DNA of 64,000 nt from Prorocentrum cordatum (taxonomy: Eukaryota > Sar > Dinophyceae > Prorocentrales > Prorocentraceae): assembly GCA_963575745.1 (NCBI GenBank), contig CAUYUJ010018327.1, positions 765,931 to 829,930 of the forward strand, given 5' to 3'. Shown piece by piece: positions 17,826 through 57,112 of the stretch; the first letter of the stretch is position 1; each line of letters begins with the position of its first letter. Both the position numbers and the translations under genes were made by a program. The notes beneath the pieces are model-generated. The model saw nothing but the letters and a program-made list of their open reading frames with translations, made no database searches and had not been told where the DNA came from.

Positions 17826-18560
17826 CTAGCCCATCCAGAAGCGATGCCCAGGCGAGTTACCTTGATCAGGGATGCGGAGGAGCATGCGGTGTAATACAGG
17901 GATGCTGTGCTGCTACTGGCGCTTGGCTCAAGCATTGTAACCGCCATCTGGCGGTGTGACACATATGTGTACTCTAGCGTTCGTCCGCTCACTGTAAACA
18001 GATTTCAATCAGCATTACCATTATTCTGTTTCACGCGCAGCAGAAAGGCCAGAGGCCTAGTGGGTGCCTCCTGGTTTCTCTTCCGATGTCTATTGATAGT
18101 TTTTGGGGGGCTTTTTGGTGCGTTTTGTGGGCCTGTTGGCGATCGCGCTTTTGGAGCGTCTTGGGTGCCTTGGGGAAGCCTTTTGGAGCCTCTTTGGGGT
18201 CTCTTGGGTGCATCTTGGGAACCTCTCGACGGCCTTTCGCGGCCTCCTGGGCGCCTCTTTGGACACTCTTGGGGCACTCCTGGGAGCCTCGAAGATCTTG
18301 GGGCCATGTTGTAGGCGCTCGATCAGAGAAGGGGACGTACTCAATTAGCCACCCCCCCAGGAGGCCAACATGTTACCAACATCTGAGTAAAATCCATCAT
18401 ATTGGCCTTCTCGCCGAGGCCGTCTTGGACGCTCCAACTACCCGCGAAACGCCCCGTCCAGGTCTGGGGGGAGAGGGAAAGGGGCAGGGGTAAGCCCTTC
18501 CCCGGAGGGAAAGACGGGGGGGGGAAGAGGAAACGCCCTAAACCACTCACGCCTTAAAGG
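17826..18560 (+). repeat. CTCTTGG-class repeat, copy with both conserved ends
   Basis: The left end (17826-17885: catccagaagcgatgcc, gcgagttaccttgatcaggg) matches copies at 19712 and 44870. The core (18060-18310) iterates cttttgg, gcctcttggg and gcgcctcttgg at irregular 9-18 bp spacing. The right end (18310-18560) closely matches 52190-52440: gatcgatca-like word, gaggccaaNatg, ctcgccgaggccgtcttgg, cccgtccaggtc, ttccccg and a-agggctggtg. Frames crossing the core encode LGASWG-like strings and are not genes. Confidence 0.7.
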
Positions 18561-18676
18561 GCTGGTGCGACTTACACACCTCAACGTGCCGCTGGCACGG
18601 TGGCGGATAAGCACTCTGACGAGAGATGCCCTCCGCTTGGTAGCTGACTTCTCGTCTTCTGTGCTCTGTCCTGCAG

Positions 18677-18821: not shown

Positions 18822-19700
18822 GTAACAGTAGCGATCAAATGCACAGGTTGAGGAGCGAACACAGGGTGGCACGGACAGGTATCAATTGCGCTCCCCCCGT
18901 CCTTCTTCCTGTTGGCTGCTCCGCCTCCTCATCGCCCTCCTCTTTTCTTGGCTTCCCGCTATCACACGGTGCAGGCCCGTGCGCACTGGGGGACGGATCC
19001 CACTTCGCGAGTATGAGGCTGCAGTGCCAGGAGTCCACCTCTCCCCGTCCTCCCCTTCTGCTGTTCCCTTCGCCCTCCCCTCTGCCCACACGCCACTTTG
19101 TTGATCCTGGGCAATTTCTCCCAATATTCTGAGCACGGGCTTCACGTTGCTAGTGTCACGCATTCGGCTCCTCAGAGTCACTCGTTCACGACACTCAGAG
19201 TCAGATTCACTCGCACGCAGATTCACAAGTCAAACCCACTCAGATTCATGCATACCCCGTCGCTGGTAGCTACTTCTCGGACTTACGCGCGTCTCACCTC
19301 ACCGCGACGTTACAGGCATAGCACTCGGGCATGTCAAGGAGAAGTCAAGAACGGGAGATTCACGGGCCCGTCCGCCCCCAGGTCGGACCGCTTTCTAATG
19401 TAGAGTGCCCGCGTTGGCGGGGTAGACGAGCTCGTCTTCAGAGCCCAATGGCCACCGCGATTTAGCAGGCATCGCACCCGGGCCTCTCCCAAATGTGGTA
19501 TCGACAATGTTTTTCACGGGCCCATTCGAGCCCAGATGAATGGGCTCCCTTAGGTAAATGTTTTTCTTGGGTTAGGAGCGTCCATTCGGCGAGACGTCGG
19601 CGTCTTCGAAAAACAAAACCTAAATACCAACCTAAATGCCAACAGCACTATCAATTCATGTATACATTCCAACATCTGTTCCGAATCATTTGACTCTTCG
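18822..19700. other. No recognisable gene; possible intron of the kinase-like exon
   Basis: Pyrimidine-rich patches (18890-18960, 19040-19090) resemble introns. Short agattcactc and cagattca words recur near 19190-19250. No kinase subdomains were found. Confidence 0.35.
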
Positions 19701-19709
19701 CGCAACTTC

Positions 19710-19935
19710 ACCAGCCCATCCAGAAACGATGCCCCGAGGAGTTGCCTCGATCAGGGAAGTGGGCAGCACACAGAGGACGGGTCTCTCTTGGAGCGCTCTT
19801 GGGACACTCTTGGGCCTCTTGGCGGTGTCTTGGGAGCCTCTTGGAGGCCTCTTGGGCGCCTCTTGGGGCCTCCCGGGCGCCTCTTGGCGTCATCTTGGTG
19901 GAGATCGATCAATACATGGGCGCTCTAAGTGAGCG
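19710..19935 (+). repeat. CTCTTGG-class repeat, short copy with conserved left end
   Basis: The left end (catccagaaacgatgcc, cgatcagggaagtggg, cagcacacagagga) is shared with the copies at 17826 and 44870. The core (19780-19895) is a run of ctcttgg, gcctcttgg and gcgcctcttgg. It stops at gagatcgatcaataca, a word also found at the core end of the 52-kb copy. Confidence 0.7.
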
Positions 19936-23330: not shown

Positions 23331-23641
23331 GGGCGATAGGCGTCCGCTGCGCGAAGACGCTGCCAGTGAGACTCGAGACGCATTCTCCGCTGTGTGAGAG
23401 ACTAAACATGGGAGTGCGTGCGCAGAGATGTTTGTTGATCACGAGTTGTCGCTCTGTGGTCTATGCCTATAGCCTGTGGCTCCACAGATCAACCGGCCCT
23501 CCCCCCAAACCCCTTTTTCGATATTTCATTTTGTTCTGGGTATCGGTCACTCGCCCCACCTGGGGCGATAGGCGCCCGCTGCGCGAAGACGCTGCCAGTG
23601 AGACTCGAGACGCATTCTCCGCTGTGCGAGAGACTAAACAT
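23331..23641 (+). repeat. Pair of 80-bp direct repeats at the 3' end of the DIRS-like element
   Basis: The block gggcgatagg...actaaacat occurs at 23331-23410 and 23562-23641 with only a couple of differences, 231 bp apart. DIRS-group elements carry split direct or complementary terminal repeats at their 3' side, so this fits. The matching 5' partner was not found. Confidence 0.8.
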
Positions 23642-23975
23642 GAATAAAACGCGAGGAAGTCTCAGGCGGGAGCGGGGCTCCCGGCTAAAGTGTGAGGAAG
23701 ATTCAGGCGGGAACCGTTGTTGTTGTAACCCGGGGGCCAGGGGCGCAGTTTGAGTTTCAAGATTTTCCCTTATGAAAACAGGGTGCGAGCCCTGGGAAGG
23801 GCACTTCGATGGAAAAAGTACAATGTGCACCGGAGGGGGGATCAACCATGATTATTCTTTAGTCGGGACATTTCAACGACGACGACAACAACAACGACAA
23901 CATCAACACCAACATCAATTACAATATCAGCAGCTACATTTACAACTACGACTACAATAGTTTTAGCAACAACAG
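23642..23975 (+). repeat. Array unit 1: DB family, 5'-truncated
   Basis: Only the DB tail is present: a few gaggaagtctc(a)ggcgggagc units, gttgttgttgtaaccc, gggtgcgagccctggg, the gtgcaccgg word and the 3' box with a degenerate CAA/GAC tract. It directly abuts the direct repeat of the DIRS-like element. Confidence 0.7.
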
Positions 23976-25081
23976 CAACAATCATTTTACCCTCATGCGC
24001 GATGTTTCCACGCGAAGCATGCGACCATCATGATAACCATCCACGTACTGGGAGACTATTGTTCTATAGCGGGGCCCGTTATTCCCATTCCCAGATCTCC
24101 CGCCTAATGAGGTCTTGCAAACTCCTCCGAGGAATTTCAACATATCCCGCCTCGAAAACACATGCCCGCGCCTTGCTGCGCCGATGCGAGACCGCCAGTG
24201 GAACCCCAGCGAAGGGCAAATCACAAGGAAGTATCGAACGACAGGATTGCCTTAGTGGGGATGGGGGCCGTCGGCGGTGAGGCAAGAACCTGGCCCTGAA
24301 TAGAAAGGGGAGAGGTCTCGAGCAGGGCTGCTGTTGTTGTTGGGAGCGGCGCCAATGCTGACGAGAGTAGGGCGCTAGTCCAGCGTAATACAAAACGAAG
24401 TCTCGGGCCAGAGCGCTGGTTTTGTCGGGGCGGCGGTTTTCGGCGGCGAGGAGGAACGGAGGAGGCATGGAGCGGGAGTCGTGGTTTTGTCGGGACGGGG
24501 GTTGTCGGCGGCGAGGAACAGCACCGTCTCCAGGAACAAACGAGGAAGTCTCGAGCGGGAGTGTTGTTCTTGCTGGGAGTGGCGCCAATTCAAAAGAGAG
24601 CAGGGCGCCAGTGCAGCGTAAAACGGAAGTCTCGGGCGGGAGCGCTAGTTCTGTCGGGGTGGCAGTTTTCGGCGGCGAAGAGTAGCACCGCCCGGAGTAA
24701 AATAGAGGGGTTGAACCTCGAACTGGAGCGTTGTTTTTGCTGGGGGCGGCGCCGATTAGAGAAAGACTAGCGCGCCAGTCCAAGGTAAAACGGGAGGAAG
24801 TCTCGAGCGGGAACGCTGGTTGTGTTGGGACGGTGGCTTCCGGCGGCGAGCAAGAACACCGGCCCTGGGTAAAAAAGAAGAATCTCGAGGGGGAGTGTTG
24901 TTGTAGTCGGGGGGCCGGTTTCGGCGGCCCCCCAAACCGCTCGAGAGTGGGCCTCATTTTCAATGAAAATGTAGCCGGCGCCTCGGCGAGAGCGCCATAG
25001 CGCCTTTAAGGTGTCCAACAATAAGAACTGCTTAGTAATTAACATCCAACAACAACAGCAGCAACAACAACAATCATTTTA
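23976..25081 (+). repeat. Array unit 2: GH family
   Basis: The head (acctcatgcgc-like start, cccagatctcccgcc, ctccgaggaatttcaac) matches the head of unit 4. The body repeats a roughly 120-150 bp module with gtctcgggc(c/g)ggagcg, ttgtcggggcgg and ttttcggcggcgag. The tail (ggcggccccccaaaccgc, atgtagccggcgcctcggcgagagcgcc) matches 28640-28815. It ends with the 3' box and AAC/CAG tract. Confidence 0.7.
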
Positions 25082-25322
25082 AGACTGTTCGCCCTTATTT
25101 GCTCGAGTGTCCAATAACGCCTATTTCCCAAACCCTCGATGCCCGCCCTCTTCGCCTTCGATCGAACCCCTTTTGGGGGGTATATTTTTCTTCCCTGCAG
25201 GCCCGGCCCCGGCAAGCGGCGGGGCGGCCGCGTACCGTCGGCCTGGCCAGCGGCAGCGCTGATCGGCGGGGCGGCCGCGGACCGCCCACCCGACCCCAAG
25301 AGGGGCGGACAGGGGACCGACC

Positions 25323-25389
<67 letters not shown>

Positions 25390-25390
25390 A

Positions 25391-25422
<32 letters not shown>

Positions 25423-26476
25423 GCGCAAACGAGAGCGAAACAGAACGACAGCAGGGCCACAAGGACACGAAGTAGGCCACGACGGGCAACAGCGGGGACA
25501 CGAATGGAATGCGTATGGGGCCACGAAGAGCGCGAACGAGCGGGGGCCACGAAGGGCAGATAATGTGGGGCCACAGAAGGCAACGATGGGGCCATTCAGG
25601 ATAGCAACTGGGCCACGTACGACAGATGCACGTGGGGCCACCACGGGCGCGAACGAGCGGGGGCCGCGAAGGGCATGCATATGGGGCCACGAAGGGGAGC
25701 GAGGGGGCCACGAAGGGACGCAACGGGGCCGCGAAGGGCAGCGAGGGGGCCACGAAGGGCTGCAACGGGGTCACGAAGGATTGCGACGGGGCCACGAAGG
25801 GCAGCGAGGGGGCCACGAAGGGTTGCAACGAGGCCACGAAACAAAGCGAGGGGGCTACGAAGGATTGCAGCGGGGCCACGAAGGGCAGCGAGGAGGCCGC
25901 GAGGGGCTGCAACGGGGCCACGAAGAGCAGCGAGTGGGCCACGAAGGGTTGCAACGGGGCCACGAAACAAAACGAGGGGGCCACGAATGGCTGCAACGGG
26001 GCCGCGAAGGGCAGCGAGATTCCGATTCCTATGTAACTTGTGAGGGGGTCCTCAGCGTGAGCGCGACTCCTGGGTGTCGGGCCGTCGGGAGCGCGGCGCT
26101 CGAGTAAATTATATGAAATTGCACCTCAAGGGCGCTATTCTTCAGTAAATTGCAAGCAAGTCTCCAGCGAGAGCGCGACTCCACATCGCCGGGAAAATAC
26201 ACTCTGAGGATGTCCCAAGCGAGAGCGCGATTCCTGAATATAGCGCGAGGAGGTCTCAGGCGGGAGCGGGGGTCCTGGCTAAAATGTGAGGAAGTCTCAG
26301 GCGGGAGCCGCTGTTGTTGCAAACCGGGGGCCACCGACATTGTTTGACTTTCAAGATTTTCCCTGAATAGTAACAGGGTGCGAGCCCCGGGAAGGGCACT
26401 TCAATCGAAAAAACACAATGTGCACCAGACGGGGGGATTAACAATAATTATTCTTCAGGAATGAGAGTTCAACAAT

Positions 26477-26532
<56 letters not shown>

Positions 26533-26534
26533 CC
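25082..26534 (+). repeat. Array unit 3: DB family with (GAC)n and 21-bp minisatellite expansion
   Basis: The DB head (ctgttcgcccttatttgctc, cccgccctcttcg, gcggggcggccgcgtaccgt) is followed by a (GAC)n tract at about 25321-25425. A 21-bp minisatellite, ggggccacgaagggcagcga with variants, spans about 25690-26020 and codes ATKGSEG/ATKGCNG heptapeptides in one frame. Then come three DB 41-bp-type units, the tail and a long (AAC)n at 26473-26533. Open frames across it follow from the repeat periods being multiples of three. Confidence 0.75.
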
Positions 26535-28855
26535 ATGTTACCCTCATGCGCCATGCTTCCACATGACACATGCATCCATCTGGATAACACACCCCATCAT
26601 GGGGGATTTTTCTGGCATGCGGGATCCGATATTCCCTCACCCAGATATCCCGCCCAAGAAGGTTTGGCCACCACCTCTTCCGAGGAACTTCAACATCCAT
26701 AGCTCGGACGGCACATCGCCTTCGCAATCGCCTTGCGCATGCCCCGCATCTCAGAGGGAGAGGAAGAGGAAGAGGAGGGGGAGATGAGAGAGATAGGGAG
26801 GGGGAGGAGGAGAAGGGAGGGGGAGGAGGGGGAGGAAGGATGAGTAGTTGTAGTAGCAGCAGTTGATGATATTGTTGTTGCGGCTGTAGCACTAGTAGTA
26901 GTGGTAACGGTAGTAGTAGTCCAAGTAAGTAGAACTGGCCTGTGGCAGCCCAGCGTTCATAGCGACGTTGCTTTTTGATCCTCTTTTAATGTCTTCTCTC
27001 CCTATCCTTGAGACGCAGAAGTCTCAAAAAGTTGGATGGTTCAGCACATCCAGGAAACCTATCGCTGGACCGGCCCAGATATGGTCCCAGAGGCGGCTCG
27101 GGAAGCTGCGCAAGCGCCAGAAGCAGAGAAGCACCACGTACGGGCGCCGGCTCGGGCGTCCGGCCCAAAGCCGCTCCAGAATCGGCCCAGGACGGCTTCC
27201 CGGGCGCCGCAAGCAGAAATTCAGCATTTTCGAAAGAAAAATGTGTATTGGAATGGCCTCTTTTCGGCGCGATCGGAACTGCCCGGGCGTCCGGCCCGGG
27301 AGCCAGGCCGGGTGCTGGCCGGGCCGGGTGCCGGCCCGAGCTCCGGAATCGGCCCGGACGGCCTCCCGGGCGCCGGAAGCAGAAATTCAGCATTTTCGAA
27401 AGAAAAATGTGTATTGGAATGCTTTTTTCGGCGCCGCCTCGGAACTCGATTTTCCGGCGCCCGGGCGCCGGCTCGGGCGCCGACCCGGGCGTCCGGCCCG
27501 GGAGCCAGGCCGGGTGCTGGCCCGAGCTCCGGAATCGGCCCGGACGGCTTCCCGGGCGCCGGAAGCAGAAATTCAGCATTTTCGAAAGAAAAATGTGTAT
27601 TGGAATGGCCTTTTTTCGGCGCCGCCTCGGAACTCGATTTTCCGGCGCCCGGGCGCCGGCTCGGGCGCCGACCCGGGCGTCCGGCCCGGGAGCCGAGCCG
27701 GGTGCCGGCCCGAGCTCCAGAATCGGCACGGACGGCCTCTCGGGCGCCGGAAGCAGAAATTCAGCATTTTCGAAAGAAAAATGTGTATTGGAATGGCGTT
27801 TTTTCGGCGCCGCCTCGGAACTCGATTTTCCGGCGCCCGGGCGCCGGCTCGGGCGCCGACCCAGGCGTCCGGCCCGGGAGCCGGGCCGGGTGCCGGCCCG
27901 AGCTCCGGAATCGGCCCGGACGGCCTCCCGGGCGCCGGAAGCAGAAATTCAAAATTTTCCAGAGAAAAATGTGTATTGGAATAGCATTTTTTCGGCGCCG
28001 CCTCGGAACTCGATTTTCCGGCGCCCGGGCGCCGGCTCGGCTCGGGCGCCGACCCGGGCGTCCGGCCCGGGAGCCGAGCCGGGTCCGAGCTCCGGAATCG
28101 GCCCGGACGGCCTATCTCCCGGGCGCCGGAAGCAGAAATTCAGCATTTTCGAAAGAAAAATGTATATTGGAATGGCCTTTTTTCGGAGCCGCCTCGGAAC
28201 TCGATTTTCCGGCGCCCGGGCGCCGGCTCGGGCGCCGACCCGGGCGTCCGGCCCAGGAGCCGGGCCGGGTGCCGGCCCAGGCTCCGGAATCGGCCCGGAC
28301 GGCCTCCCGGGCGCCGGAAGCAGAAATTCAGCATTTTCGAAAGAAAAATGTGTATTGAAATGGCCTTTTTTCGGCGCCGCCTCGAAACTCGATTTTCTGG
28401 CGCCCGGGCGCCGGCTCGGGCGCCGACCCGGGCGTCCGGCCCGGGAGCCGGGCCGGGTGCCGGCCCGAGCTCCGGAATCGGCCCGGACGGCCTCCCTCCC
28501 GGGCGCCGGAAGCAGAAATTCAGCATTTTCGAAAGAAAAATGTATATTGGAATGGCCTTTTTTCGGCGCCGCCTCGGAACTCGATTTTCCGGCGCCCGGG
28601 CGCCGGCTCGGGCGCCGACCCGGGCGTCCGGCCCGGGAGCCGCTCTCGGCGGCGAGCAAGAGCACCGAACCCGAGTAAAAAAGGAGGAAGTCTCGAGCCG
28701 GAGCGTTGTTGTTGTTGGGGGGCCGGTTTTGGCGGAACCCCAAAACGCCTGAGCGTGAGCCTCAATTTCAGAGGAAATGCGGCCGGCGCCTCGGCGAGAG
28801 CGCCAGGGCGAATATAGGGGGTCCAACAATAATAATTGTTTAGTAATTAAGGTTC

Positions 28856-28909
<54 letters not shown>

Positions 28910-28911
28910 TA
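26535..28911 (+). repeat. Array unit 4: GH family containing the 188-bp satellite
   Basis: The GH head (26535-26745) is followed by GGAGGG and GTA-rich tracts, then a low-complexity lead-in to eight satellite repeats (see next entry). The GH tail (28640-28815) and the 3' box close it, with (AAC)n at about 28852-28910. Confidence 0.75.
27205..28640 (+). repeat. 188-bp satellite, eight tandem copies
   Basis: The word cagaaattcagcatttt (with one variant) starts at 27214, 27380, 27566, 27754, 27942, 28133, 28321 and 28513. The spacing is 166-192 bp, mostly 188. Each unit has an AT-rich half (aaagaaaaatgtgtattgg) and a very GC-rich half built on ggcgcccgggcgcc palindromes. All three forward frames are open for hundreds of codons (up to 556) because neither half contains stops in any frame. 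I regard these frames as compositional, not genes. Confidence 0.9.
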
Positions 28912-29682
28912 CTAGCACGTGGGGACACTCCGTTCTCACCAGTGCCAGGGTTTTCATAGGAGGCGGGCAATACCCCCACTTTGTGGGGGGGCCGGTTCAA
29001 GCTCTACCAAATTTCCAAACGACTCTTCGCCACCACCCACACCCAGCTTCCCGCCCTATGACGTTCGGACACTTCACTTCGTGGCATGCGGACGACCGTG
29101 GCTACTATTCAGGGCCCCGCGGCCGACGACGACGGCGTGCGCGCGCGAAGAAAAAACGAATGTGTCCCGCATGGTATTATTTGACAGGGATGATGGCCCT
29201 GGCAGGTGCGCAACCGTTGTCGCAGAAGTTCGAAAAAGTTGCTCGCAAAAGCCCGTTTGACAGAAATGTTTAAAAAGTGTTGGGTTTCCTACGAATCCGC
29301 AAGAGCGCGCGGGATGAGATTTTGACATTTTTTTGTTGAAAAACCATTGGTTTTTTGATGTTTTTATGTTAAAATCGCTCCGAACACTAAGCTTTTGGAA
29401 GGATTTCGTCTTGCGCGCGCGAATGTCCACTTTACCTTATTTTTTGCAAGGGATTCTTGAAATTTGATTATATTAGAACAAGAAATGTCATTTTATAGTG
29501 TTTTTTGCAAGGGAAAGCGGGGGGGAACAAAACAACCGGATCTTGATCACATCGAATTACCTGAGGCTTCCTCACGAAAATGATGAAAATGTAGCTGCGG
29601 CCTAGGCGGCGCAGGGGGGCCGTGCACCAGGGGGCCCAACAATAATTATTCTTTAGAATTAATAATGTTCAACAACAACAAT
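28912..29682 (+). repeat. Array unit 5: C family, complete
   Basis: About 770 bp. The head is ctagcacgtggggacactcc; the middle has ggaggcgggcaata, cgacgacgacggcgtgcg and gaatgtgtcccgcatgg; the AT-rich second half has ttttttgcaaggga repeats and gcggcctaggcg before the 3' box. A 113-codon frame (28919-29260) and an overlapping 96-codon frame are kept in all complete copies. That is expected from near-identity and does not itself show coding function. Confidence 0.8.
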
Positions 29683-30198
29683 CATTTAAGACTGGGGACA
29701 CTCCGTTCTCACCAGTGCCAGGGTTTTCATAGGAGGCGGGCAATACCCCCACTTTGTGGGGGGGCCGGTTCAAGCTCTACCAAATTTCCAAACGACTCTT
29801 CGCCACCACCCACACCCAGCTTCCCGCCCTATGACGTTCGGACACTTCACTTCGTGGCCTGCGGACGACCTTGGCTACTACACTGGCGCATGGGTACAGT
29901 GACTTGTTGTGGTAACATTTTGTGGAAGCTAGCTTAGTATACGACTTTTCCCCCTGTTCCAACACTGGACACCTGTACCGTTTTCCGACGTTTTTCCGTT
30001 TCTGTACCACACAAGCGAAGACACTTATTTTGAGTGGTACCACGTGCGTGGCGCCAGCATACCACAGGACTTGTTTCCGTTGTTGCGAGACGATACATGC
30101 TCATTCTTGTTCTGTGGTTGTCGTTCCGGCCTCAATGTGCAATACTGGCTCATTCGTCTACGAAATACACGTGACTAGCTCTCTCTGGTTGGAGGTCC

Positions 30199-30450
30199 TG
30201 ATGGTTGTGGTTGTCCCGATGGTTGTCGCGATGATTGTCCCGATGATTGTCCCGATTGTTGTTCCGATGGTTCTCCCGATGGTTGTCCCGATGGTTGTCC
30301 CGATCGTTGTCCCGATGGTTGTCCCGATGGTTGTCCCGATGGTTGTCCTGATGGTTGTGGTTGTCCCGATCGTTGTCCCGATGGTTGTCCCCATGGTTGT
30401 CCCGATGGTTGTTCCGATGGTGGTCCCGATGGTTGTCCCGATGGTTGTCA
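30199..30450 (+). repeat. 12-bp minisatellite GATGGTTGTCCC
   Basis: About twenty copies with variants (gatgattgtccc, gatggttgtggt). The period is a multiple of three, so one frame reads MVVP repeats and the opposite strand reads GTTI repeats. It is followed by (GGA)n at about 30479-30510. Confidence 0.9.
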
Positions 30451-30557
30451 GCGACGCCGGATCCTCACGCCCCCCGCCGGAGGAGGAGGAGGAGGAGGAG
30501 GAGGAGGAGCAGGACAAGGCGCGGCGGCTCTGGACACATACGTGCTCTGGAGACATA

Positions 30558-33500
30558 CTAAAGAGACGAGTCTTTGTGCTCATCATCTTCTGGCATACGC
30601 CTGTCTCTAATGGCACGCATCGGGCGCAATGCTGCAAGCTGCGCTCCTGGCAGCAATACATCAGGGGCCAAGTGTCCAAGCATTGTGCCGATACGCCTCC
30701 TCGCGGATACATCGCCCGTGCGTGCGTGGGGCGCCAATACCGCCAGGACGCCCTGGACATGCGCCGGCATACCCAGATCCACCTGGTAATCCATGACATT
30801 CCCATACTCGGACTGCCCGAAAGAACGCCATACTGGCATGTGCCACCAATGGTCCTGCTTCGGGAAATAGGTGATACCATCCTTGACGTCGTCGGAGGCA
30901 TTCCACAGAGCCATAGATGGCGGCTCCATACCCATGGATCCCGTGTGTGTTGCCACAAATACATCCAGGCTCGCCATGCGCCTGTATGACAGACCTGATA
31001 CCACCTCGGAATGCACGTGAATACGCAGGAGCTGCAACAGCCTGCGCAAGCCAGCATACACCCAGCCGCCGTGCCCGACGAAGACGTGCGATCTCCAGTT
31101 CGCTATACCGGCTTGGGTGCACAGCCGATGGAATACTTCCGAAAGTGTGCCCAGATACTTCGCGGCTGAATCTGCGAAACCAGAAAAGTTGCCGAATACC
31201 AAGCCAGGGTAGAAGTATACCGCGAACGCCATCCACTCTGGGGTCTGGATGCCTCCCATACGGCGCTGGTTCTCGACCATGCCGTTCTCCTTGGACTGGC
31301 GCGTACTCTCCGGCGTCGAGAGGCAGAGGCATACACCCGTGAGTCCCTGCCACATACACGGAAAGTACACAGCAGTCGCGAACCACGTGGTCTCGCGCAG
31401 CACCTTTCAGGAGAGACAAAAGTACCACTACCACCAGCTAGGGGGGTGGCCGCGCCTTCCCCTCGAGCTGGTGGCACCTCGTTCCGGGCACTCTCTGGAG
31501 GCATACCCGGAAGGAGGTGCCACCAGCTCGAAGATGGAGCGGCCACCCCCCTAGCTGGTGGTAGTGGTACTTTTGTCTCTCCTGAACCTTGAGCCAGTGG
31601 AATACCAACCCGCCCCCGCCGGGTGGCATAGCCCAGCGCCTCATACCCTCGGCCACCTCCTCGTTGGATGGGGTATACTCCCCAGTCTGTTCGTCCCACT
31701 GCCCTGCCATTGCCAACAATACGGACGCGCGTCGGAGATACACGCGTGCGCAGTCCTCGGCAGCACCTGGCCCAGGAAGGTCCTCTCGTAGGCCTCCACC
31801 ACAGGACCTGGCAGCGCATCCTTGTATACGAAGGCACCTGGATACTCGAGTGCCAACTTGGCATGCCGTTCGTGGTCACCAAAAAATACCGATAGATTCT
31901 GCAAAGGCGCCAACTCTTCCGCCACGCCCAAGCGCTGACATAAAGATGCACGCACAGCCTCCAAACCAGGTCTAGCCCGGGCGCGACAGCCATCCGCCCG
32001 GGCGTGGCCGAGCTTGCTATCCAGAGAAACCAAGGAATACAAGAACTCCCACTCCTGTTGCTCTAGGTGCTCGCTGGTCCAGCATTCGCCACGTGGCTCG
32101 CGATAGCGACGATGCGCTACGAGCCGCTGCGTGGCCCTGCAATCCACGAGATACTGCGCCAGTAACTGCTTTTTCACCTCCTCGGCCGAGACACCCTTCT
32201 GCAGCTGCTCCAGGACATACTCCCCGCATACGTGGCTGCGTATCTCCTCAGCATTCTCCAGCATTGCCAGCTGCTGGGAGGGCGCCTTCAGCCACTTCTC
32301 CAGGGACAACAAATTGGCAAATACCCCGGTCTCCGCGCGATACTTGTCCACCAGCGCTCGCCCCCTCAAGCCTTCTACGTGATACCAGTGCTGGAGGTCC
32401 CTGCGCGACAACGCGTAGACGGCGCAATTGCCATGTTTGGCACCGTCTCCGAGTCGATACTTGCCCAGCCACTCTCGCAAGGCATACTGACCCGCCTCAT
32501 ACCCCCAGGCCTTCAGACGCACCTGCATATTCTGGTAAGTGAGGCCAAGGCCCAAGTCGGAGACCTGCTCTCGATACCGCTTGCCGCATGCCGCCTCTAC
32601 AGCATCCCCCGTCAGCAGCTTTATACAAACCACATCTGTGGAGGAAGAAGAACCAGATCTGCTTCGATGCGGGCCCCTCCCAGTCGACCGCGGCAGGCCG
32701 TTTGCCCACGCGGACAGATCCGGTGGCGGCTGGCCGTTTCAATACCCCGCCTGCGACCTGTGCCGCCGGGCGCTTCAATACGCGCTTGGTGACGGCCTGG
32801 GCGGATGAAGCCGCCGCCTGCACTGAGGAGCTCACCGACGCATACACATCGCACCACTGTCTCAACACTCCTCGGGACACCAAGACAGCTTTCCGTCGCA
32901 TACGCAACGCGGCATGCAACGTGTGGCACTTCAGCCCTGGATACACCGCGCGCATGTGGTCACCAAGTGCCGCGTCGAGCTTTTCAGCCGTGTCATACTG
33001 CAAAGGTCCAGAGTCAGGGTGATACTTCACGTGCCATTGCCTCAAAACCATACCGCTGACAGCGACGGGAGGATCGCTCTCCGAGAGAAGCTGCGAGAGG
33101 ACCTCCGCGGCGGCCTCGTCGGCGAAGCTCTCCCGATACTGATTGAGTCGAAGACGCTGGCCTATACATTCCTCCACAGCTTGGGCAGTATTGAATGCTC
33201 CCTTGGCGCCCCACTCAGTGCTGAGCCACTTCTGGCATACCCTGGCGTCAGCAGATACAGATAAATGTCCCAGGAGCCACTGCTTCAAGACGGCCCCGTC
33301 AGTAGTCCCCTCGGGCATGTCTGTGCGAATACGTTCTCCATACCAGGTCTCCAAATGGCCAGCGCTCTGCATTATGACAAGCGTGTCTTTGGAAGAATAC
33401 TGCAGTAGCCACGCCGTTGCGACCGGATTTGACACATGCAGTGGTGGATCCAACCGTCGGAGCGCCCCACATAATTTGAAAGCTGTATTATACTCGATGC

Positions 33501-33815
33501 CCAGATGGCGGATGGCAGAGCCGTGCTGCTCCTCCAGCTCCTTGGCGCTAGAAATACTGACCTTGCCAGGCACAACCCGATACTTGACCCGCCGAACCTT
33601 GCACGCCTGGTGACTGACCTGGATGCCCTTTGCAACGAGCGCCTGATGCAAATAAAACGGGCTGCCGCAGTCGGCCAAGGGAGGCCGCGACAGCTCTGGG
33701 CCACACTGCTCGTCAAGGGCTTTCGCCGACAAAGCCATGACCCATCCAAGAACACAGGCGATACCTTGATCCGAGATGGCTACGGATGTGACAGTGGTCA
33801 GTGATTTTGTTCGAT
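30558..33815 (-). pseudogene. Large modular protein of unknown family, frameshifted and split by a MITE
   Basis: Reading on the minus strand from about 33815, the first part holds repeated modules of roughly 75-80 residues. Each contains a VS..VLRQW...Y-like box (KQWLLGHL, RQWHVKYH, RQWCDVYA) and an SA..LE..G helix. A KRPAA linker with three KRPAA words follows (near 32680-32790). After a one-base shift near 32640 the chain continues (YREQV, LREWLGKYRLGDG, VFFGDHERHAKLALEYP) to about 31760. There it shifts again to ARVYLRRASVLLAMAGQWD and FHWLKV. Past the foldback element at 31407-31585 it resumes with TTWFATAVYFPCMWQ, YFYPGLVFGNFSGFADS and WWHMPVWRSFGQSEYGN. I do not recognise the family. 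Repeated helical boxes before a conserved core would suit a DNA-binding transposase, but that is a guess. Confidence 0.55.
31407..31585. mobile_element. Foldback MITE, 179 bp, ACCTT target duplication
   Basis: The ends are perfect inverted repeats for about 45 bp, starting TCAGGAGAGACAAAAGTACC and reversing to end in CCTGA. The inner part is also largely palindromic (ctcgagctggtggcacctc against its complement), so almost the whole element folds on itself. ACCTT stands directly outside both ends, at 31402-31406 and 31586-31590. It lies inside the minus-strand gene and breaks its frame. There is no coding capacity. Confidence 0.85.
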
Positions 33816-34695
33816 GACGTGGTGACACACTGACTTGTTGTGGTACCATGCCGACAACGACGACGCGACGACGCGCGCATGTGTCCCGCATGATAATTTT
33901 TGCAAGGGATTGTGGCCCCTGGCAGGCGCGCGAACGCCGTTGAAAGAGCTTGCGAAAACAGCTCGCGCGAGCTCTATAACATAAATGTTGAAAAACCATT
34001 GGTTTTTAAGGATTCGGACAGCGCGCGCGGGTAGAAATTTTGAAAATTCGTACAGATGTTTTTCGAGAACCTACGGTGCGATTCGTATGATTTTATGTTG
34101 CGCGGTGCTAAAATTCCTAAGAAACCCAATGATTTTTGAAGATTTCGGCGTGCGCGCGCGAAGAAAAAACGAATGTGTCCCACATGGTATTATTTGACAG
34201 GGATGATGGCCCTGGCAGGCGCGCAACCTTTGTTGCAGAAGTTCGAAGCACGTAAAAAAGTTGCTCGCGAGAGCCCGTTTGACAGAAATGTTGAAACAGT
34301 ATTGGGTTTCCTAAGAAATCCGCAAGAGCGCGCGGGGTTAATTTTTTAAACCTTTTTTTTGAAAAACCATTGGGTTTTCATGTTTTTATGTGAAAATCGC
34401 TACGAAGACTAAGGTTTTGGAAGGATTTCGTCTTGCGCGCGCGAATGTGCACTTCGTGTCATTTTTTGCAAGGGATTCTTGAAGTTTGGTCATGTTAGAA
34501 CAAGAAATGTCCACTTTGCCTTATTTTTTGCAAGGGAAAACCGATCGTAACAACACAACCGGATCTGGTATACCCCGTTTTGCTTGAGACTTCCTCACGA
34601 AAATGATGAAAATGTGGCTGCGGCCTAGGCGCGGCGGGGGGGGCGCGCACCAGGGGCCCCAACAATAATTATTCTTTAGAATTAATAATGTTCAA

Positions 34696-35110
34696 TTGCT
34701 AGCACGTGGGGACACTCCGTTCTCACCAGTGCCACGGTTTTCATAGGAGGCGGGCAATGCCCCCACTTTGTGGGGGGGCCGGTTCAAGCTCTACCAAATT
34801 TCCAAACGACTCTTCGCCACCACCCACACCCAGCTTCCCGCCCTATGACGTTCGGACACTTCACTTCGTGGCATGCGGACGACCGTGGCTACTATTCAGG
34901 GCCCCGCGGCCGACGACGACGGCGTGCGCGCGCGAAGAAAAAACGAATGTGTCCCGCATGGTATTATTTGACAGGGATGATGGCCCTGGCAGGTGCGCAA
35001 CCGTTGTTGCAGAAGTTCGAAAAAGTTGCTCGCAAAAGCCCGTTTGACAGAAATGTTTAAAAAGTGTTGGGTTTCCTACGAATCCGCAAGAGCGCGCGGG
35101 ATGAAATTTT

Positions 35111-35146
<36 letters not shown>

Positions 35147-35486
35147 TATATATAAAAAAAAAAATATGTTTTAATGTTACAATCGCTACGAAAACTAAGG
35201 TTTTGGAAGGATTTCGTCTTGCGCGCGCGAGTGTCCAATTTTCCATATGTTTTGCAAGGGATTCTTGAAGTTTGGATATGTTAGAACAAGAAATGTCCAC
35301 TTTAGCTTATTTTTTTGCAAGGGAAAACCGATCGTAACAACACAACCGGATCCGGACCAACCCGTTTTGCCTGAGACTTCCTCACGAAAATGATGAAAAC
35401 GTGGCTGCGGCCTAGGCGCGGCGGGGGGGCCATGCACCAGGGGCCCCAACAATAATTATTCTTTAGAAGTAATAATGTTCAACAAC
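34696..35486 (+). repeat. Array unit 7: C family with a poly-T run
   Basis: A complete C unit. At 35109-35165 the usual tttttttgttgaaaaac stretch is replaced by a run of more than 30 T, then TATATA and an A run. It ends with the 3' box and a short AACAACAA. Confidence 0.8.
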
Positions 35487-36426
35487 AATCAGTTTAAGCC
35501 TGTTCGCCCTTATCTGCTCGAGTGTCCAATAACGCGTATTTCCCAAACCCTCGATACCCGCCCTCTTCGTCTTCGATCGAACCCTTTCTGGGGGGTATAC
35601 CTTTCTTCCCTGCAGGCCGGGCCCCGGCATGCGGCGGGGCGGCCGCGTACCGTCGGCCTGGCCAGCGGCAGCGCTGATCGGCGGGGCGACCGCGGACCCT
35701 CCACCCGACCCCAAGAGGGACGGACAGGGGAGCGACGACGACGACGTCGACGACGACGGCGACGACGAGCGAAAGCGAGAGCGAGAGAGAAAGACAGCAG
35801 GGCCACGAAGGACACGAAGTAGGCCACGAAGGGCGACAGCGGGGACACGAAGGGATTGCGCATGAGGCCACGAAGAGCGCGAACAAGCGGGGGCCACGAA
35901 GGGCACATAATGCGGGGCCACATAAGGCAACGATGGGGTCACTGAGGGTAGCAACTGGGCCACGTAGGACAGTGAGGGGGCCACAAACGGCGACAGCGGG
36001 GCCACGAAGGGCATGCGCATGGGGCCACAACGGGCGCGACTCCTGGGTGCCTGGGTGTCGGGACCGCGCCGCTTGAGCAAATTGCAAGAAATTCCAACGC
36101 AAGGGCGCTATTCTTCAGTAGCTTGCAAGCAAGTCTCCAGCAAGAGCGCGATTCCACAACGCCGGGAGAGCGATTCCTGAATTAATTGCAAGGAAGTCCC
36201 AAGCGAGAGCGCGATTCCGGAATAAAATGCGAGGAAGTCTCGGGCGGGAGCCGTTGTTGTTGCAACCCGGGGGCCAGGGGCCCAGTTTGAGCAGGAAGAC
36301 TTTCTTTGTCAAAAAACAAGGTGCGAGCGTCGAGGGGCACACTCTGATAGAGAAAAAACAGTATGCACCGGTGGGAGGGGATCAATGATAATTATTCTTC
36401 AGAAGTGAGAGCTCAACAACAACAAT
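35487..36426 (+). repeat. Array unit 8: DB family, short (GAC)n
   Basis: The DB head is nearly identical to those of units 3 and 9. (GACGAC)n is reduced to a few copies near 35734-35770, and the 21-bp ggggccacgaaggg minisatellite is short. Two or three 41-bp-type units, the DB tail and the 3' box follow. Confidence 0.8.
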
Positions 36427-36674
36427 AAGTTTAAGCTCGATTGCCCTTATATGCTCGAGTGTCCAATAACGCCTATTTCCCAAACCCTCGATGCCCGCCC
36501 TCTTCGTCTTCGATCGAACCCTTTCTGGGGGGTATACCTTTCTTCCCTGCAGGCCGGGCCCCGGCAAGCGGCGGGGCGGCCGCGTACCGTCGGCCTGGCC
36601 AGCGGCAGCGCTGATCGGCGGGGCGACCGCGGACCGTCGACCCGACCCCAAGAGGGACGGACAGGGGACCGACC

Positions 36675-36707
<33 letters not shown>

Positions 36708-37482
36708 TCGAAGACGACGGCGACGACGACGACGGCGACGACGAGCGAAAGCGAGAGCGAGAGAAAACGACAGCAGGGCCACGAAGGGCACGAAATAGGC
36801 CACGAAGGGCGACAGCGGGGACACGATGGGAATGCGTATGGGGCCACGAAGAGCGCGAACGAGCGGGGGCCACGCAGGGCAGATAATGCGGGGCCACATA
36901 AGGCAACGATGGGGCCACTGAGGGTAACAACTGGGCCACGTAGGACAGTGAGGGGGCCACAAACCACAAACGGCGACAGCGGGGCCACGAAGGGCATGCA
37001 CATGGGGCCACAACGGGCGCGACTCCTGGGTGCCTGGGTGTCGGGAGCGCGCCGCGTGAGCAAATTGCAAGAAATTCCAACGCAAGGGCGCTATTCTTCA
37101 GTAGCTTGGAAGCAAGTCTCCAGCAAGAGCGCGACTCCAGAACGCCGGGAGAGCGATTCCTGAATAAATTCGAGGAAGTCCCAAGCGAGAGCGCGATTCC
37201 GGAATAAAATGCGAGGAAGTCTCGGGCGGGAGCGGGGGTCCTGGCTAAATTGCAAGGAAGTCTCAGGCGGGAGCCGTTGTTGTTGCAACCCGGGGCCATG
37301 GGGCCAAGTTTGAGTAGAAAGATTTCCGTTGTCAAAAAACAGGGTGCGAGCGTCGAGGGCACACTTTGATTGAGAAAAACAATATGCACCGGTGGGAGGG
37401 GATCAAACATATTTTTTAGAAATGAGAATTCAACAACAACAACAACAACAACAGCAGCAGCAACAACAACAACAACCATTTT
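36427..37482 (+). repeat. Array unit 9: DB family
   Basis: Same organisation as unit 8 with a longer (GAC)n (36675-36750) and extra gaggaagtctc units before the tail. It ends in an AAC/CAG tract at about 37430-37478. Confidence 0.8.
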
Positions 37483-37829
37483 AAGGCTGTACGCTCTTAC
37501 TTGCCCGCGAGTCATTCAACACGTATGCCCTACACCCTCGAAGCCCGCCCTCTTCGTCTTCGATCGCACCCCTTTCGGGGGGATTATTTCTCTTTGCTGG
37601 GGCCGGCGGGCTTAGACGTACGGGCAAACCGGAACGGGCGGACAATTGTTCGGGGGCGTACATCTTTCTGCCCGCCATTGGAATTGGCGCGGGCCCTGCA
37701 AGAGGAGGAGGGGAAGAACGAGGGAGAGTGGGAGGAAGGGGAGGGGGAAGGACGAAGGAAGAGGGAATATACCACGTTGTGAAGGCGTCCTTGGCGCGTG
37801 CGTGGTTCCTGAGCGCCGAAACGCAATTC

Positions 37830-38290
37830 CATAATAATTTGTGAGGACGTCGCACGCGAGAGCGCAGTCCTGAGTACATTGTGAGGAAATCTCGGGCGGG
37901 AGCGGGGGCCCTGACGAAGTTGCGAGGAAGTCTCAAGCGGGAGCGCCGTTCCTGAGCAAATTGCACGGAAGTCTCAGGCGGGAACGGGGGTCCTCACTAA
38001 ATTGCGAGGAAGTCTCAGGCGGGAGCGCCGTTCCTGAGTCAATTGCGCGGAAATGTCAGGCAGGAGCGGGGGTCCTGAGTAAAATTCGAAGAAGTCTCAG
38101 GCGGGAGCGCCGTTCCCACGTAAATTGCACGGAAGTCTGAGGCGGGAGCGGGGGTCTTGATTACATTGCGAGGAAGTCATAGACGGGAGCGCCTTTCCTG
38201 AGTAAATCGCGCGGAAGTCTCAGGCGGGAGCGGGGGTCCTGAGTAAAAATCGAGGAAGTCTCAGGCGGGAGCCGTTGTTGTTGTAGCCCG
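37830..38290 (+). repeat. 41-bp minisatellite with alternating subtypes (dimeric higher-order repeat)
   Basis: About eleven copies of a g(a/c)ggaagtctcaggcgggagcg-type unit. Two subtypes alternate regularly: one continues ccgttcctgag, the other ggggtcctgag. The alternation holds for at least eight successive units, which implies growth by an 82-bp dimer. Confidence 0.85.
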
Positions 38291-38374
38291 GGGGGCAGGG
38301 GCACAGTTTGAGCAGGAAGACTTTCTTTGAGAAAAAACAAGGTGCGAGCCCCGGGGGTGGCACTTCAATCGAAA

Positions 38375-39426
38375 ATTATCCTAGCAAAGCAACCTAACAG
38401 CGATGTGTAGAAGCATATCTGAAAGCATTACCCTTAAGATTCAGATGAAAATCCAGTTGTAGAATTCTGCTGTTCTCGCAGTCGTAGTCGCATTCGCGAT
38501 GACAGTCGCAGCGGCAACGGCAGTCGCAGTCACAGCCTCAACCTCAGCCTGCCTCAGCCTCAGCCTCAGCCTGCCTCAGCCTCAGCCTGCCTCAGCCTCA
38601 GCCTCAGCCTGCTTCAGCCTCAGCCTCAGTCTGCCTTCAGCCTCGGCCTCAGCCTCAGCCTGCCTCAGCCTCAGCCTGCATCAGCCTCAGCCTCAGCCTC
38701 AGCCTGCCTCAGCATCAGCCTGCCTCAGCCTCAGCCTCAGCCTGCCTCAGCCTCAGCCTCAGTCTGCTTCAGCCTCAGCCTCAGTCTGCCTTCAGCCTCG
38801 GCCTCAGCCTCAGCCTGCCTCAGCCTCAGCCTGCCTCGGCCGCAGCATCAGCCTGCCTCAGCATTCAAAATGTGGCCCAGGAATGGAGTTCTGGGAACTA
38901 GAAGAACACGAAGTGGCCTACAGTTGGCTCCGGGCATTCAAAATCATGCCCAGGAATGGAGTTCTGGGAACTTGAAGAGCACGAAGTGGCCTACAGTTGG
39001 CTCCGGGCATCCAAAATGTGGCCCGGGAATGGAGTTCTGGGAATCGAAGAGCACGAAGTGGCCTACAGTTGGCTCCGGGCATCCAAAATGTGGCCCAGGA
39101 ATGGAGTTCTGGGAAATCGAAGAGCACGAAGTGGCCTACAGTTGGCTCCGGGCATTCAGAATGTGGCCCGGGAATGGAGTTCTGGGAGGTCGAAGAGCAC
39201 GAAGTGTGTGACTGTTTGCAAAAAGCGAGCCCGGCTCTGTTCCCGGTTCTCCACAATGTGTCCCGGGAGTGGAGTTCTGGGAGGTCGAAGAGCACGAAGT
39301 GTGTGACTGTTGGCGAAAAACGATTCCCGGTTCTCCTCCCCGGCACCCGCCCAGACCCCCCTGAGGAGTCATGATGTGTCTTTTGACCCTACTAGAAACC
39401 TATCAGCAAACGCTGTTAGGTAAAAA
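38375..39426 (+). mobile_element. CCTCAG element, copy 1, with 11-bp terminal inverted repeats
   Basis: ACCTAACAGCG at 38392-38402 is inverted as CGCTGTTAGGT at 39411-39421. The left arm (to about 38545) is almost the same as 48886-49050. Then come CCTCAG hexamers with CTGCCT and CATCAG variants (38545-38865), about six copies of a 60-70 bp unit with gaatggagttctggga and gcacgaagtg(g/t), and a right arm shared with 50640-50786. It interrupts a DB tail next to an A run. The frames over the hexamers read PQPASAS and LSLSL strings and are not genes. Confidence 0.75.
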
Positions 39427-39483
39427 TCAATGTGCACCGGTGGGGGGGGATCAACAATAATTATTCTTCAAGAATGAGAGTTC

Positions 39484-39528
<45 letters not shown>

Positions 39529-39535
39529 TACTAGC

Positions 39536-40302
39536 ACGTGGGGACACTCCGTTCTCAACAGTGCCAGGGTTTTCATAGGAGGCGGGCAATACCCCCACTT
39601 TGTGGGGGGGCCGGTTCAAGCTCTACCAAATTTCCAAACGACTCTTCGCCACCACCCACACCCAGCTTCCCGCCCTATGACGTTCGGACACTTCACTTCG
39701 TGGCATGCGGACGACCGTGGCTACTATTCAGGGCCCCGCGGCCGACGACGACGGCGTGCGCGCGCGAAGAAAAAACGAATGTGTCCCGCATGGTATTATT
39801 TGACAGGGATGATGGCCCTGGCAGGTGCGCAACCGTTGTCGCAGAAGTTCGAAAAAGTTGCTCGCAAAAGCCCGTTTGACAGAAATGTTTAAAAAGTGTT
39901 GGGTTTCCTACGAATCCGCAAGAGCGCGCGGGATGAGATTTTGACATTTTTTTGTTGAAAAACCATTGGTTTTTTGATGTTTTTATGTTAAAATCGCTGC
40001 GAACACTAAGGTTTTGGAAGGATTTCGTCTTGCGCGCGCGAATGTCCACTTTACCTTATTTTTTGCAAGGGATTCTTGAAATTTGATTATATTAGAACAA
40101 GAAATGTCATTTTCTATTGTTTTTTGCAAGGGAAAGCGGATTACAACAAAACAACCGGATCCTGTACACACCCTCTTTCTGAGGCTTCCTCACGAAAATG
40201 ATGAAAATGTAGCTGCGGCCTAGGCGGCGCAGGGGGGGCGCGCACCAGGGGGCCCAACAATAATTATTCTTTAGAATAAATAATGTTCAACAACAATTAC
40301 TA
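39536..40302 (+). repeat. Array unit 11: C family, complete
   Basis: Near-identical to unit 5 through the head and middle. It ends with the 3' box and a short AACAACAA. Confidence 0.8.
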
Positions 40303-41059
40303 GCACGTGGGGACACTCCGTTCTCACCAGTGCCAGGGTTTTCATAGGAGGCGGGCAATACCCCCACTTTGTGGGGGGGCCGGTTCAAGCTCTACCAAAT
40401 TTCCAAACGACTCTTCGCCACCACCCACACCCAGCTTCCCGCCCTATGACGTTCGGACACTTCACTTCGTGGCATGCGGACGACCGTGGCTACTATTCAG
40501 GGCCCCGCGGCCGACGACGACGGCGTGCGCGCGCGAAGAAAAAACGAATGTGTCCCGCATGGTATTATTTGACAGGGATGATGGCCCTGGCAGGTGCGCA
40601 ACCGTTGTTGCAGAAGTTCGAAAAAGTTGCTCGCAAAAGCACGTTTGACAGAAATGATTAAAAAGTGTTGGGTTTCCTAGGAATCCGCAAGAGCGCGCGG
40701 GATGAAATTTTGACATTTTTTCGAAAAAAAACCATTAGTTTTTGGATGTTTTTATGATAAATTCGCTACGAACACTAAGGTTTTGGAAGGATTTCGTCTT
40801 GCGCGCGCGAATGTCCACTTTACTTTATTTTTTGCAAGGGATTCTTGAAGTTTGGTTATGTTAGAACAAGAACTGTCCACTTTAGTTTATTTTTTGCAAG
40901 GGAAAACCGATCGTAACAACACAACCGGATCCGGGCCAACCCGTTTTGCCTGAGACTTCCTCGCGAAAATGATGAAAATGAGGCTGCGGCCTAGGCGCGG
41001 CGGGGGGGCCATGCACCAGGGGTCCCAACAATAATTATTCTTTAGAAGTAATAATGTTC

Positions 41060-41109
<50 letters not shown>

Positions 41110-41214
41110 GAGCAACAACAACAACAACAACACCACCAACAACAACAAGCATATTAAGACTGCAACAACAGCAACAACAGCAGCAGCAGCAACAACAACA
41201 ATAACAACATCATC
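40303..41214 (+). repeat. Array unit 12: C family, last of the array, long AAC/CAG tract
   Basis: A complete C unit whose 3' box is followed by about 60 bp of (AAC)n, then mixed AAC, ACC and CAG triplets up to 41214, where the CTCTTGG-class repeat begins. Confidence 0.8.
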
Positions 41215-44745: not shown

Positions 44746-45260
44746 ATGGTCGCTGTGGGGCCATGTCGCAGATCGGAAGTATTCGTCGCAAGTTTGAGCC
44801 GTTCCGTTTTGGAGCGTGGCGGCTTGTGAATGCGACCGCAGGAAGAGGAGGAGGAGGAGGAGGAGGAGGAAGATCCAGAAACAATGCCGAGAGGAATTAC
44901 TTCGATCAGGGAAGTGGATAGCACACAGAGGAAGGGTCCCCCAGTGGAGGCCTCTTGGAGCGTCTTGGGGGCCTCTTGGCGGACGCCTCTTAGAGCGTCT
45001 TGGGTGCCGCGGAGAGCTTCTTGGGGCGTCTTGGGGGTCTCTTGGGAGCCTCTTGGAGGCCTCTTGGGCGCCTGTTGGGGCCTCCTGGGGCATCCTGGGC
45101 GCCTCTTGGGGCCCTCTTGAAGCGCTCTTGGGAGCCTTGAGAGCGTTATTTGGAGCCCTCTTGGGCCATCTTGGAGCCATCTTGAAGCTTCGGATGGCCA
45201 TCGGAAGCGAAAAGGCGAGAAAGCCAAACACATTGATTCTCCGAAGGTTTTGGAAGGATT
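44745..45260 (+). repeat. CTCTTGG-class repeat with conserved left end
   Basis: (GGA)n at 44838-44868 precedes the left end (gatccagaaacaatgcc, cttcgatcagggaagtgg, cagcacacagaggaaggg-like), shared with 17826 and 19712. The core runs from about 44945 to 45185 with cctcttggagcgtcttggg words. It is followed by a short non-repeat exit. Confidence 0.7.
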
Positions 45261-48812: not shown

Positions 48813-48884
48813 GCCCCAGACAGGATAAGCGTTCGGTTGACGCGTCCGCTGATGGACCAACTGGACGGGGAAAAAACATATAAG

Positions 48885-51769: not shown

Positions 51770-52445
51770 ATGCCCTCTTCGGAGCCTCATGGGGGAGCTC
51801 TTCGGCCACTTGGGGCCGTCTTGGAGCGGTCTCGGAGCCTCCTGGAGCATCGTGGGAGCCATCTTGAGGTATTTTGCGATATCTTGGCCCATTTGGGAGG
51901 TCATCTTGGGCTCTCCCAGGCGCTCCTGGAGTCATCTTAAGCAGTGCCGCCCCCCCCTGGAGGCCAACGTGTGGCCAACACTTTAGTAAACCCAATGGCT
52001 TTGGCATTCTCACCGAGGCCTCTTGGAGCGTCTTGGGTGCCTCTGGGGGACCTCTTGGGGCCTTTTGGGGGTCTCTTGTGAGCCTCTTGGGGGCATCCTG
52101 GGGGCCTCTTGGAGCCTCCTGGCCACCTCTTGGGGCCTTTTTGGGGGCACCCTTGGGGGCCTTGGGAACGCTCTTGGGGCCATCTCGGAGGAGATCGATC
52201 AATGAAGGCGGATCCCTCAATCAGCGCTGCCCCTCCAAGAGGCCAAAATGGGGCCAACACCCTTAGTGCAACCAATGATTTTGGCTTCCTCGCCGAGGCC
52301 GTCTTGGTCGCTCCGAGGCCCGCGACACGCCCCCTCCAGGTCCAGGGGAGGCGTCGGGGGAGGGGTACGCCATTCCCCGAAGGGGAAGAAGGGGGTGGAA
52401 GAGGAAGCACCCTGAACCACCTACGCCCTAAGGGCTGGTGGGATC
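51770..52445 (+). repeat. CTCTTGG-class repeat, compound copy with two right ends
   Basis: The first core (51770-51950) stops at a partial right end (51950-52015: ctggaggccaacgtgtgg, cttggcattctcaccgaggcc). A second core follows (52020-52190), and then the full right end (52195-52445), which matches 18310-18560 word for word in several places. This shows that whole copies insert into or recombine with each other. Confidence 0.7.
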
Positions 52446-57055: not shown

Positions 57056-57112
57056 AACTTAGAGGACGTCAGCGACGCCCCTTTCGACATCTACAGCTAC
57101 GCGGTGATCACG

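Follow-up and report, generated by a model that had tools for sequence, protein, structure and literature searches.

The array studied here lies in a 64-kb window of the dinoflagellate Prorocentrum cordatum, i.e. the whole stretch of DNA that was analysed, which is part of contig C17478. Between positions 23641 and 41214, 12 box-bearing units follow each other head to tail, all of them on the plus strand. They belong to three families, named C, GH, and DB, and each unit ends in a box of about 40 nt, which is usually followed by (AAC)n. A search with AATAATTATTCTT, allowing for at most two mismatches, gave 10 plus-strand sites in the window; all are located inside the array and seven are exact. 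In 100 shuffles of the window, the mean number of such sites was 0.29 and the maximum 3, with both strands counted. The boxes of the remaining two units (near 25025 and 37404) are more diverged. When one copy per family was compared, the common 3' segment of about 40 nt outscored 300 of 300 shuffles in each pair of families; upstream of it, the similarity between families was not above chance. The original prediction, which was deduced from the sequence alone and postulated about twelve units in one orientation with a common 3' box, is thus borne out. It had also regarded the heads of the families as unrelated. For C, the comparisons with DB and GH, again based on one copy per family, were at chance at that sensitivity; the heads of DB and GH have one 38-column patch in common that was equaled by 0 of 300 shuffles. 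Runs of at least three AAC occur 14 times within the 17.6-kb array vs 0 times in the remaining 46.4 kb of the window.

The array begins with U1 (23641..23982), a C unit represented by its 3' half only, which has its box at 23847 and a degraded AAC tail. It is followed by U2 (23982..25073), a GH unit with the diverged box near 25025 and an AAC tail, and by the C unit U3 (25074..26533), which comprises a head, a CGA run, 21-bp and 41-bp repeats, the box at 26443, and (AAC)n. The GH unit U4 (26533..28908) contains a piece of large-subunit ribosomal RNA (LSU rRNA) and 188-bp tandem repeats (27318..28642, plus strand); its box at 28828 precedes (AAC)18, and U4 has many close relatives in the genome (40 candidates were scored). 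Next come three DB units, namely U5 (28909..29681, box at 29641), the 5-kb long unit U6 (29682..34692, box at 34664) with the leader TCATTTAAGACTG, and U7 (34696..35488, box at 35451); the junction between U6 and U7 has no AAC repeats. They are followed by the C units U8 (35489..36425, box at 36387), U9 (36426..37476, with the diverged box near 37404), and U10 (37477..39527, box at 39456), the latter being interrupted by a nested element. The DB units U11 (39528..40296, box at 40259) and U12 (40297..41058, box at 41030) complete the array, and a long impure AAC tract (41059..41214, plus strand) lies behind the last unit.

The assembly searched comprises 4,128,499,153 bases in 21,875 contigs. 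The genome-wide search for the box that had been suggested in the original prediction revealed a dispersed repeat: the exact 22-nt box occurs in 12,187 copies, 6,283 on one strand and 5,904 on the other, and the reversed 22-nt box, which served as a control, in 0 copies. No box was found in viral and prokaryote contigs. With more than 12,000 exact box copies, we are dealing with a major repeat of a very large genome. Two sets of loci were read. The first comprises 16 stretches of 9.9 kb surrounding GH-like copies, which were hand-picked from the listed GH-like places (40 candidates scored); the second comprises 30 stretches of 3 kb, one for each of the box places that come first in contig order, and is not a random sample. 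The overlapping loci L029/L030, L046/L047, and L049/L050 represent different boxes of one array each; L001-L008, which overlap the larger loci, L055-L058, and duplicates were left out. Both mixed arrays and isolated units were found among the loci read. For 42 of the 64 units with enough downstream sequence, the next unit follows within 330 bp, and 8 of the 9 neighbour orders were observed across these 42 joins, the missing one being GH before GH. A unit order recurring as one block had been named beforehand as the finding that would speak for a segmental duplication; as the order of neighbours is not fixed, the array is not one duplicated block.

The positions of the units indicate what they insert into. 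At 79 of 82 distinct unit starts, AACAA ends at most 7 nt upstream and in the same phase, and 74 of these 82 starts have at least three AAC in the preceding 24 nt. This count is based on heads that match from the very first bases onwards and hence does not include the DB units with the two other leaders; according to a separate reading, these also sit behind AAC. Among the GH copies in the 16 large loci whose heads are more than 95% alike, 18 of 18 are situated behind AAC. Nearly every copy read is flanked by AAC repeats, which would mask a target-site duplication. The first 30 box places yielded 28 units with a recognised head at AAC; in L025 the head was not recognised, and L044 lies in a gap. 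Ten of the 28 units have another box at most 300 bp upstream, one (L026) follows a diverged GH-like end without a box, three are surrounded by an antisense unit, which is C in L027 and GH in L033 and L048, and 14 are behind no recognised unit, several of the latter tracts being plain or degraded microsatellites. The target is any (AAC)n and not mainly the tail of an existing copy. Hence, from the earlier proposal of serial insertion into existing tails, repeated insertion can be retained, whereas the preference for existing tails is not supported: 11 of 28 units lie behind a recognised unit end and 17 do not.

In four cases, a unit occupies the antisense GTT run of another unit and is oriented according to AAC: GH in C (L024), DB in C (L027), and DB in GH (L033, L048). 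The left AAC tract of the two C-internal insertions (L024, L027) has 5 to 6 repeats; uninterrupted sites with at least two repeats have 2 (13 sites), 3 (9 sites), 4 (2 sites), or 7 (1 site). Another repeat family that bears an AAC tract with a GGGTGGGACGACGAC-type left and a CACTTCAGCC-type right flank was seen in L015, L019, L038, L041, L052, and L053, some of these loci showing only part of the flanks. Its AAC tract was, as judged by eye, entered by GH (L015, L019), DB (L038, L041, L052), and C (L053).

Right behind AACAA, the units start with TCATTTTA, TCACTTTA, TTACTAG, or a similar sequence. This short 5' start is common to the families and had not been noted before; CATTTTA is found at the start of both C and GH, and in some DB subfamilies the agreement with the start of C or of GH extends further. 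At the 3' end, the box is followed by GTTC and then by AAC. Terminal inverted repeats above the level of shuffles were found in 0 of 7 units (80 nt at each end), and a control element was detected by the same procedure. Two further ideas on the ends were discarded: a 3' hairpin in the box, assessed by eye on alignments of the box, is weak and inconsistent between families, and the dinoflagellate spliced leader has no close match at the junctions and is not a likely origin of the 5' start.

Most copies extend from a known start to the box. A survey of truncation was based on 79 box-bearing entries, 10 of which had no measurable start; among the 69 measurable units, which are 0.5 to 5 kb long, there is no clear case of an AAC-joined 5' truncation. 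In this survey the start is the nearest upstream AAC by construction, so that only the length and the sequence at the start carry information; as judged by eye, 67 of the 69 units begin like a known head, the exceptions being L022 1666 and L016 9271. Proceeding from the heads, a box is reached by 74 of 95. For 15 heads the locus ends before any AAC run, and the other 6 lead to AAC with no box recognised in between, in several cases owing to a diverged box or a nested insert. The GH units of L018 (which includes 2,500 N) and L021 pass into other DNA before any box.

Heads and 3' ends are reassorted in the DB family. We compared 28 short DB copies with the commonest leader, identical units having been dropped. 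In their first 300 bp or so, the mean pairwise identity is 0.987 to 1.000 per 60 columns, and DB heads are nearly identical between contigs; the last 330 columns of the same copies fall into six clusters. Moreover, 3' types like those of U5 and U11, with an identity of at least 99% computed over aligned columns only, occur with three different 5' leaders each. Near-identical 3' ends with three leaders signal an exchange of modules, for which template switching and DNA recombination are the two options. The leader of U6 had been considered a remnant of a C unit; this was dropped because the same DB leader is found in L027, L043, and L045. The LSU rRNA fragment of U4 (26938..27085, plus strand) corresponds to model positions 2833-2984. 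Every one of the 18 GH copies read whose heads are closely similar contains it, the search query having overlapped the piece. The fragment is diverged, and one stem is seemingly kept by paired changes, as seen by eye.

The long DB unit U6 contains two genes in antisense orientation. The first one (31644..33790, minus strand) shows KRPAA motifs by eye and is distributed over two reading frames; its piece 31644-32738 has 11 relatives in public protein sets. The second gene, with exon 2 at 30561..31406 (minus strand), has 28 relatives in these sets and is interrupted by an introner-like inverted repeat (31406..31586, minus strand). The copy of the second gene in L015 is uninterrupted at this site, and exon 2 is open over 282 codons with 85% identity. 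The public relative P0021 apparently has a similar insert at the same place, as judged by eye. Between the window copy and the L015 copy, the rates of nonsynonymous and synonymous substitution (dN/dS) are 0.072/0.110, which corresponds to too few differences to claim selection. A comparison of the antisense gene products with Pfam at E-values up to 10 gave only matches below the cut-off. In L011, L014, L015, L027, and L029, DB units retain remnants of this gene region in antisense orientation, as is the case in the window. This is as expected of internal-deletion forms, and the short DB units look like such forms of a longer two-gene unit.

Taken as a whole, and leaving aside the enzyme, these findings make it highly probable that we see an AAC-targeted stacking of modular mobile elements. 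Serial insertion as the origin of the arrays is supported by the comparison of copies; neither an insertion event nor an empty allele of a given locus was observed. The elements would integrate at (AAC)n with a fixed 5' start placed directly behind AACAA and with a fixed 3' end, and the AAC strand would determine the single orientation and the register of each element. Every insertion would keep AAC at both sides; consequently, a next element could enter beside the previous one and arrays could grow in any order. Integration presumably needs both ends of the element. A DNA copy, which is perhaps circular with AAC at the joint, may be joined to the AAC target, and the products of the two antisense genes of long DB units may take part. 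We regard this joining of a DNA copy as a tentative proposal, which is somewhat more likely than target-primed reverse transcription; the slight lean towards two-ended DNA joining is due to the full-length copies, the AAC on both sides, and the antisense genes. Should the genes of the long DB unit drive the movement, the mobilising enzyme may be of a new kind. A direct test of RNA-based vs DNA-based integration is offered by the exchanged heads and 3' ends, combined with the lack of clear truncated copies.

Several observations do not fit this interpretation or weaken it. Three of the 82 starts deviate from the rule, namely the U6-U7 junction, L034 minus 148, and L012 7306, where the start of the alignment is probably shifted. 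A fused piece in L011 (9602-9708) may be a 5'-truncated GH unit in a DB tail. The excess of AAC repeats to the left of the two C-internal insertions could result from later slippage instead. Finally, the units could not be linked to a recombinase, transposase, or reverse transcriptase, and an AlphaFold model of exon 2, whose confidence is low (mean predicted local distance difference test score, pLDDT, of 61.5), had no match in PDB or BFVD at E ≤ 0.001.

Among the alternatives, it is still conceivable, if less probable than DNA joining, that the units are non-autonomous retroposons. A long interspersed nuclear element (LINE) would recognise the box and prime on AAC, and the AAC tail would double as a target, which would give rise to arrays. 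The common 3' end plus a tail identical to the target, the variable tail lengths, the rRNA piece within GH, and the combination of three 5' leaders with near-identical DB 3' ends, which template switching would produce, are in agreement with this model. So is a first look with the RVT_1 profile, which gave 25,237 candidates in the genome, of which 150 were scored. However, a clear 5' truncation is missing in the 69 units of 0.5 to 5 kb, and the long DB units bear antisense genes with an introner-like insert. From the 150 RVT_1 places listed, four LINE 3' regions were fetched; the three readable ones do not contain the box, and the fourth consists entirely of N. In addition, no transfer RNA (tRNA) was found in the window, and Rfam scans of the window (at the gathering threshold) and of the stretches 28860-29720 and 23640-27340 detected no RNA family transcribed by RNA polymerase III (tRNA, 7SL, 5S).

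A more far-reaching version of two-ended integration, to which we assign a rather low probability, is a cassette system. In such a system, whatever DNA is enclosed by the 5' start and the 3' box, be it genes or the rRNA piece, would move as a two-ended unit into AAC tracts serving as general attachment sites, heads and 3' ends would be exchanged, and the machinery might originate from the antisense genes of U6. The gene cassettes of bacterial integrons, which rely on attC and an integrase, carry unrelated cargo, have one common 3' recombination site each, and are arranged in one direction. The likeness is restricted to the unrelated cargo, the common 3' site, and the single direction; attC and the integrase belong to integrons.

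That the units are Helitron-like rolling-circle elements, which possess a 3' terminal structure and capture foreign sequence, appears improbable. Most C and GH units do start with TC after A, a common 3' end is attached to different bodies, an rRNA piece has been captured, the arrays are head to tail, and a title in the reference list of PMC4067079 announces a Helitron-like family that disrupts (GAAA)n microsatellites. On the other hand, the 3' end differs from CTRR, it is followed by AAC instead of T, TT is the start of most DB units, and no Rep/helicase gene, as expected in an autonomous partner, was tied to the units, although no search aimed at such a gene was made. Local recombination only, which would generate a satellite-like array by unequal crossing over or duplication between AAC tracts, could explain the 97% match between the DB stretches 28864-29880 and 39483-40495, which spans a unit boundary, and the much greater likeness of DB 5' halves compared with 3' halves, but it is very hard to reconcile with copies on many contigs, some of them isolated in AAC sites with other flanks, with DB heads that are nearly identical between contigs, and with the free order of neighbours.

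AAC-targeted stacking has precedents. The closest known kind are the SaTar elements, together with maize TAFTA and rice Micron as cited in PMC5907723, all of which are small and microsatellite-targeted. According to this paper, SaTars of guayule, rice, sorghum, and citrus form mixed arrays in which unrelated families are stacked; mixed microsatellite-targeted arrays, of which the original prediction knew no description, are thus on record. SaTars are described there as Mutator-like elements (MULEs) with terminal inverted repeats, mostly inserted in (TA)n; none was seen interrupting another, and they are proposed to move as circles that contain microsatellite filler and then undergo homologous recombination. 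For TAFTA, the same source cites TA targets of 6-8 bp, which expand on each side after insertion. Like SaTars, our units are flanked by a microsatellite and stacked in mixed arrays. Unlike SaTars, they have no terminal inverted repeats (0/7), have AAC in the copies read, point in one direction, possess a common 3' box, and also insert inside other units at a GTT run. A MULE transposase partner and duplications of 8-11 bp outside microsatellites would also be expected of SaTars.

In green algae, Zepp and Zepp-like LINEs also insert into existing copies and form tandem arrays; according to PMC8226300, these arrays consist mostly of the 3' ends of one LINE family with frequent 5' truncation, whereas the arrays described here are mixed, mostly full-length, and dispersed. 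Mixed head-to-tail arrays are likewise known from HeT-A, TART, and TAHRE of Drosophila, and insertion into short tandem repeats from SART and TRAS; according to PMC10088271, these are telomeric retrotransposons, and our units are not known to share either of these two features. Helentrons and DINE-1 resemble our units in having internal repeats, microsatellites, and non-autonomous forms, but they are characterised, according to PMC4067079, by subterminal inverted repeats, a palindrome at the 3' end, and a target rich in T, and no inverted repeat occurs in the end 80 nt of the seven units tested here. A description of such stacking in dinoflagellates was not found in listings of open-licence papers. 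On present evidence, we consider our finding a variant of microsatellite-targeted stacking and not a separate category; microsatellite-guided stacking of unrelated mobile elements is seemingly not confined to plant MULEs.

Some additional features of the window are described in the following. The region 57100-64000 resembles by eye a degraded copia-like retroelement; the open reading frames tested there have no Pfam match. In U7, a run of 31 T and an AT-rich stretch (35114-35166) are located near a switch of likeness between DB types. The nested element in U10 (38372..39425, strand not assigned) has an 11-bp inverted repeat near its ends and a second copy at 48882-50786; it contains CAGCCT and 73-bp repeats, and one further copy exists in L011. 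Minisatellites of the GCCTCTTGG type with periods of 11/21 bp are scattered over the window at 18100-18570, 19700-19900, 44870-45140, 52015-52440, and 55990-56180.

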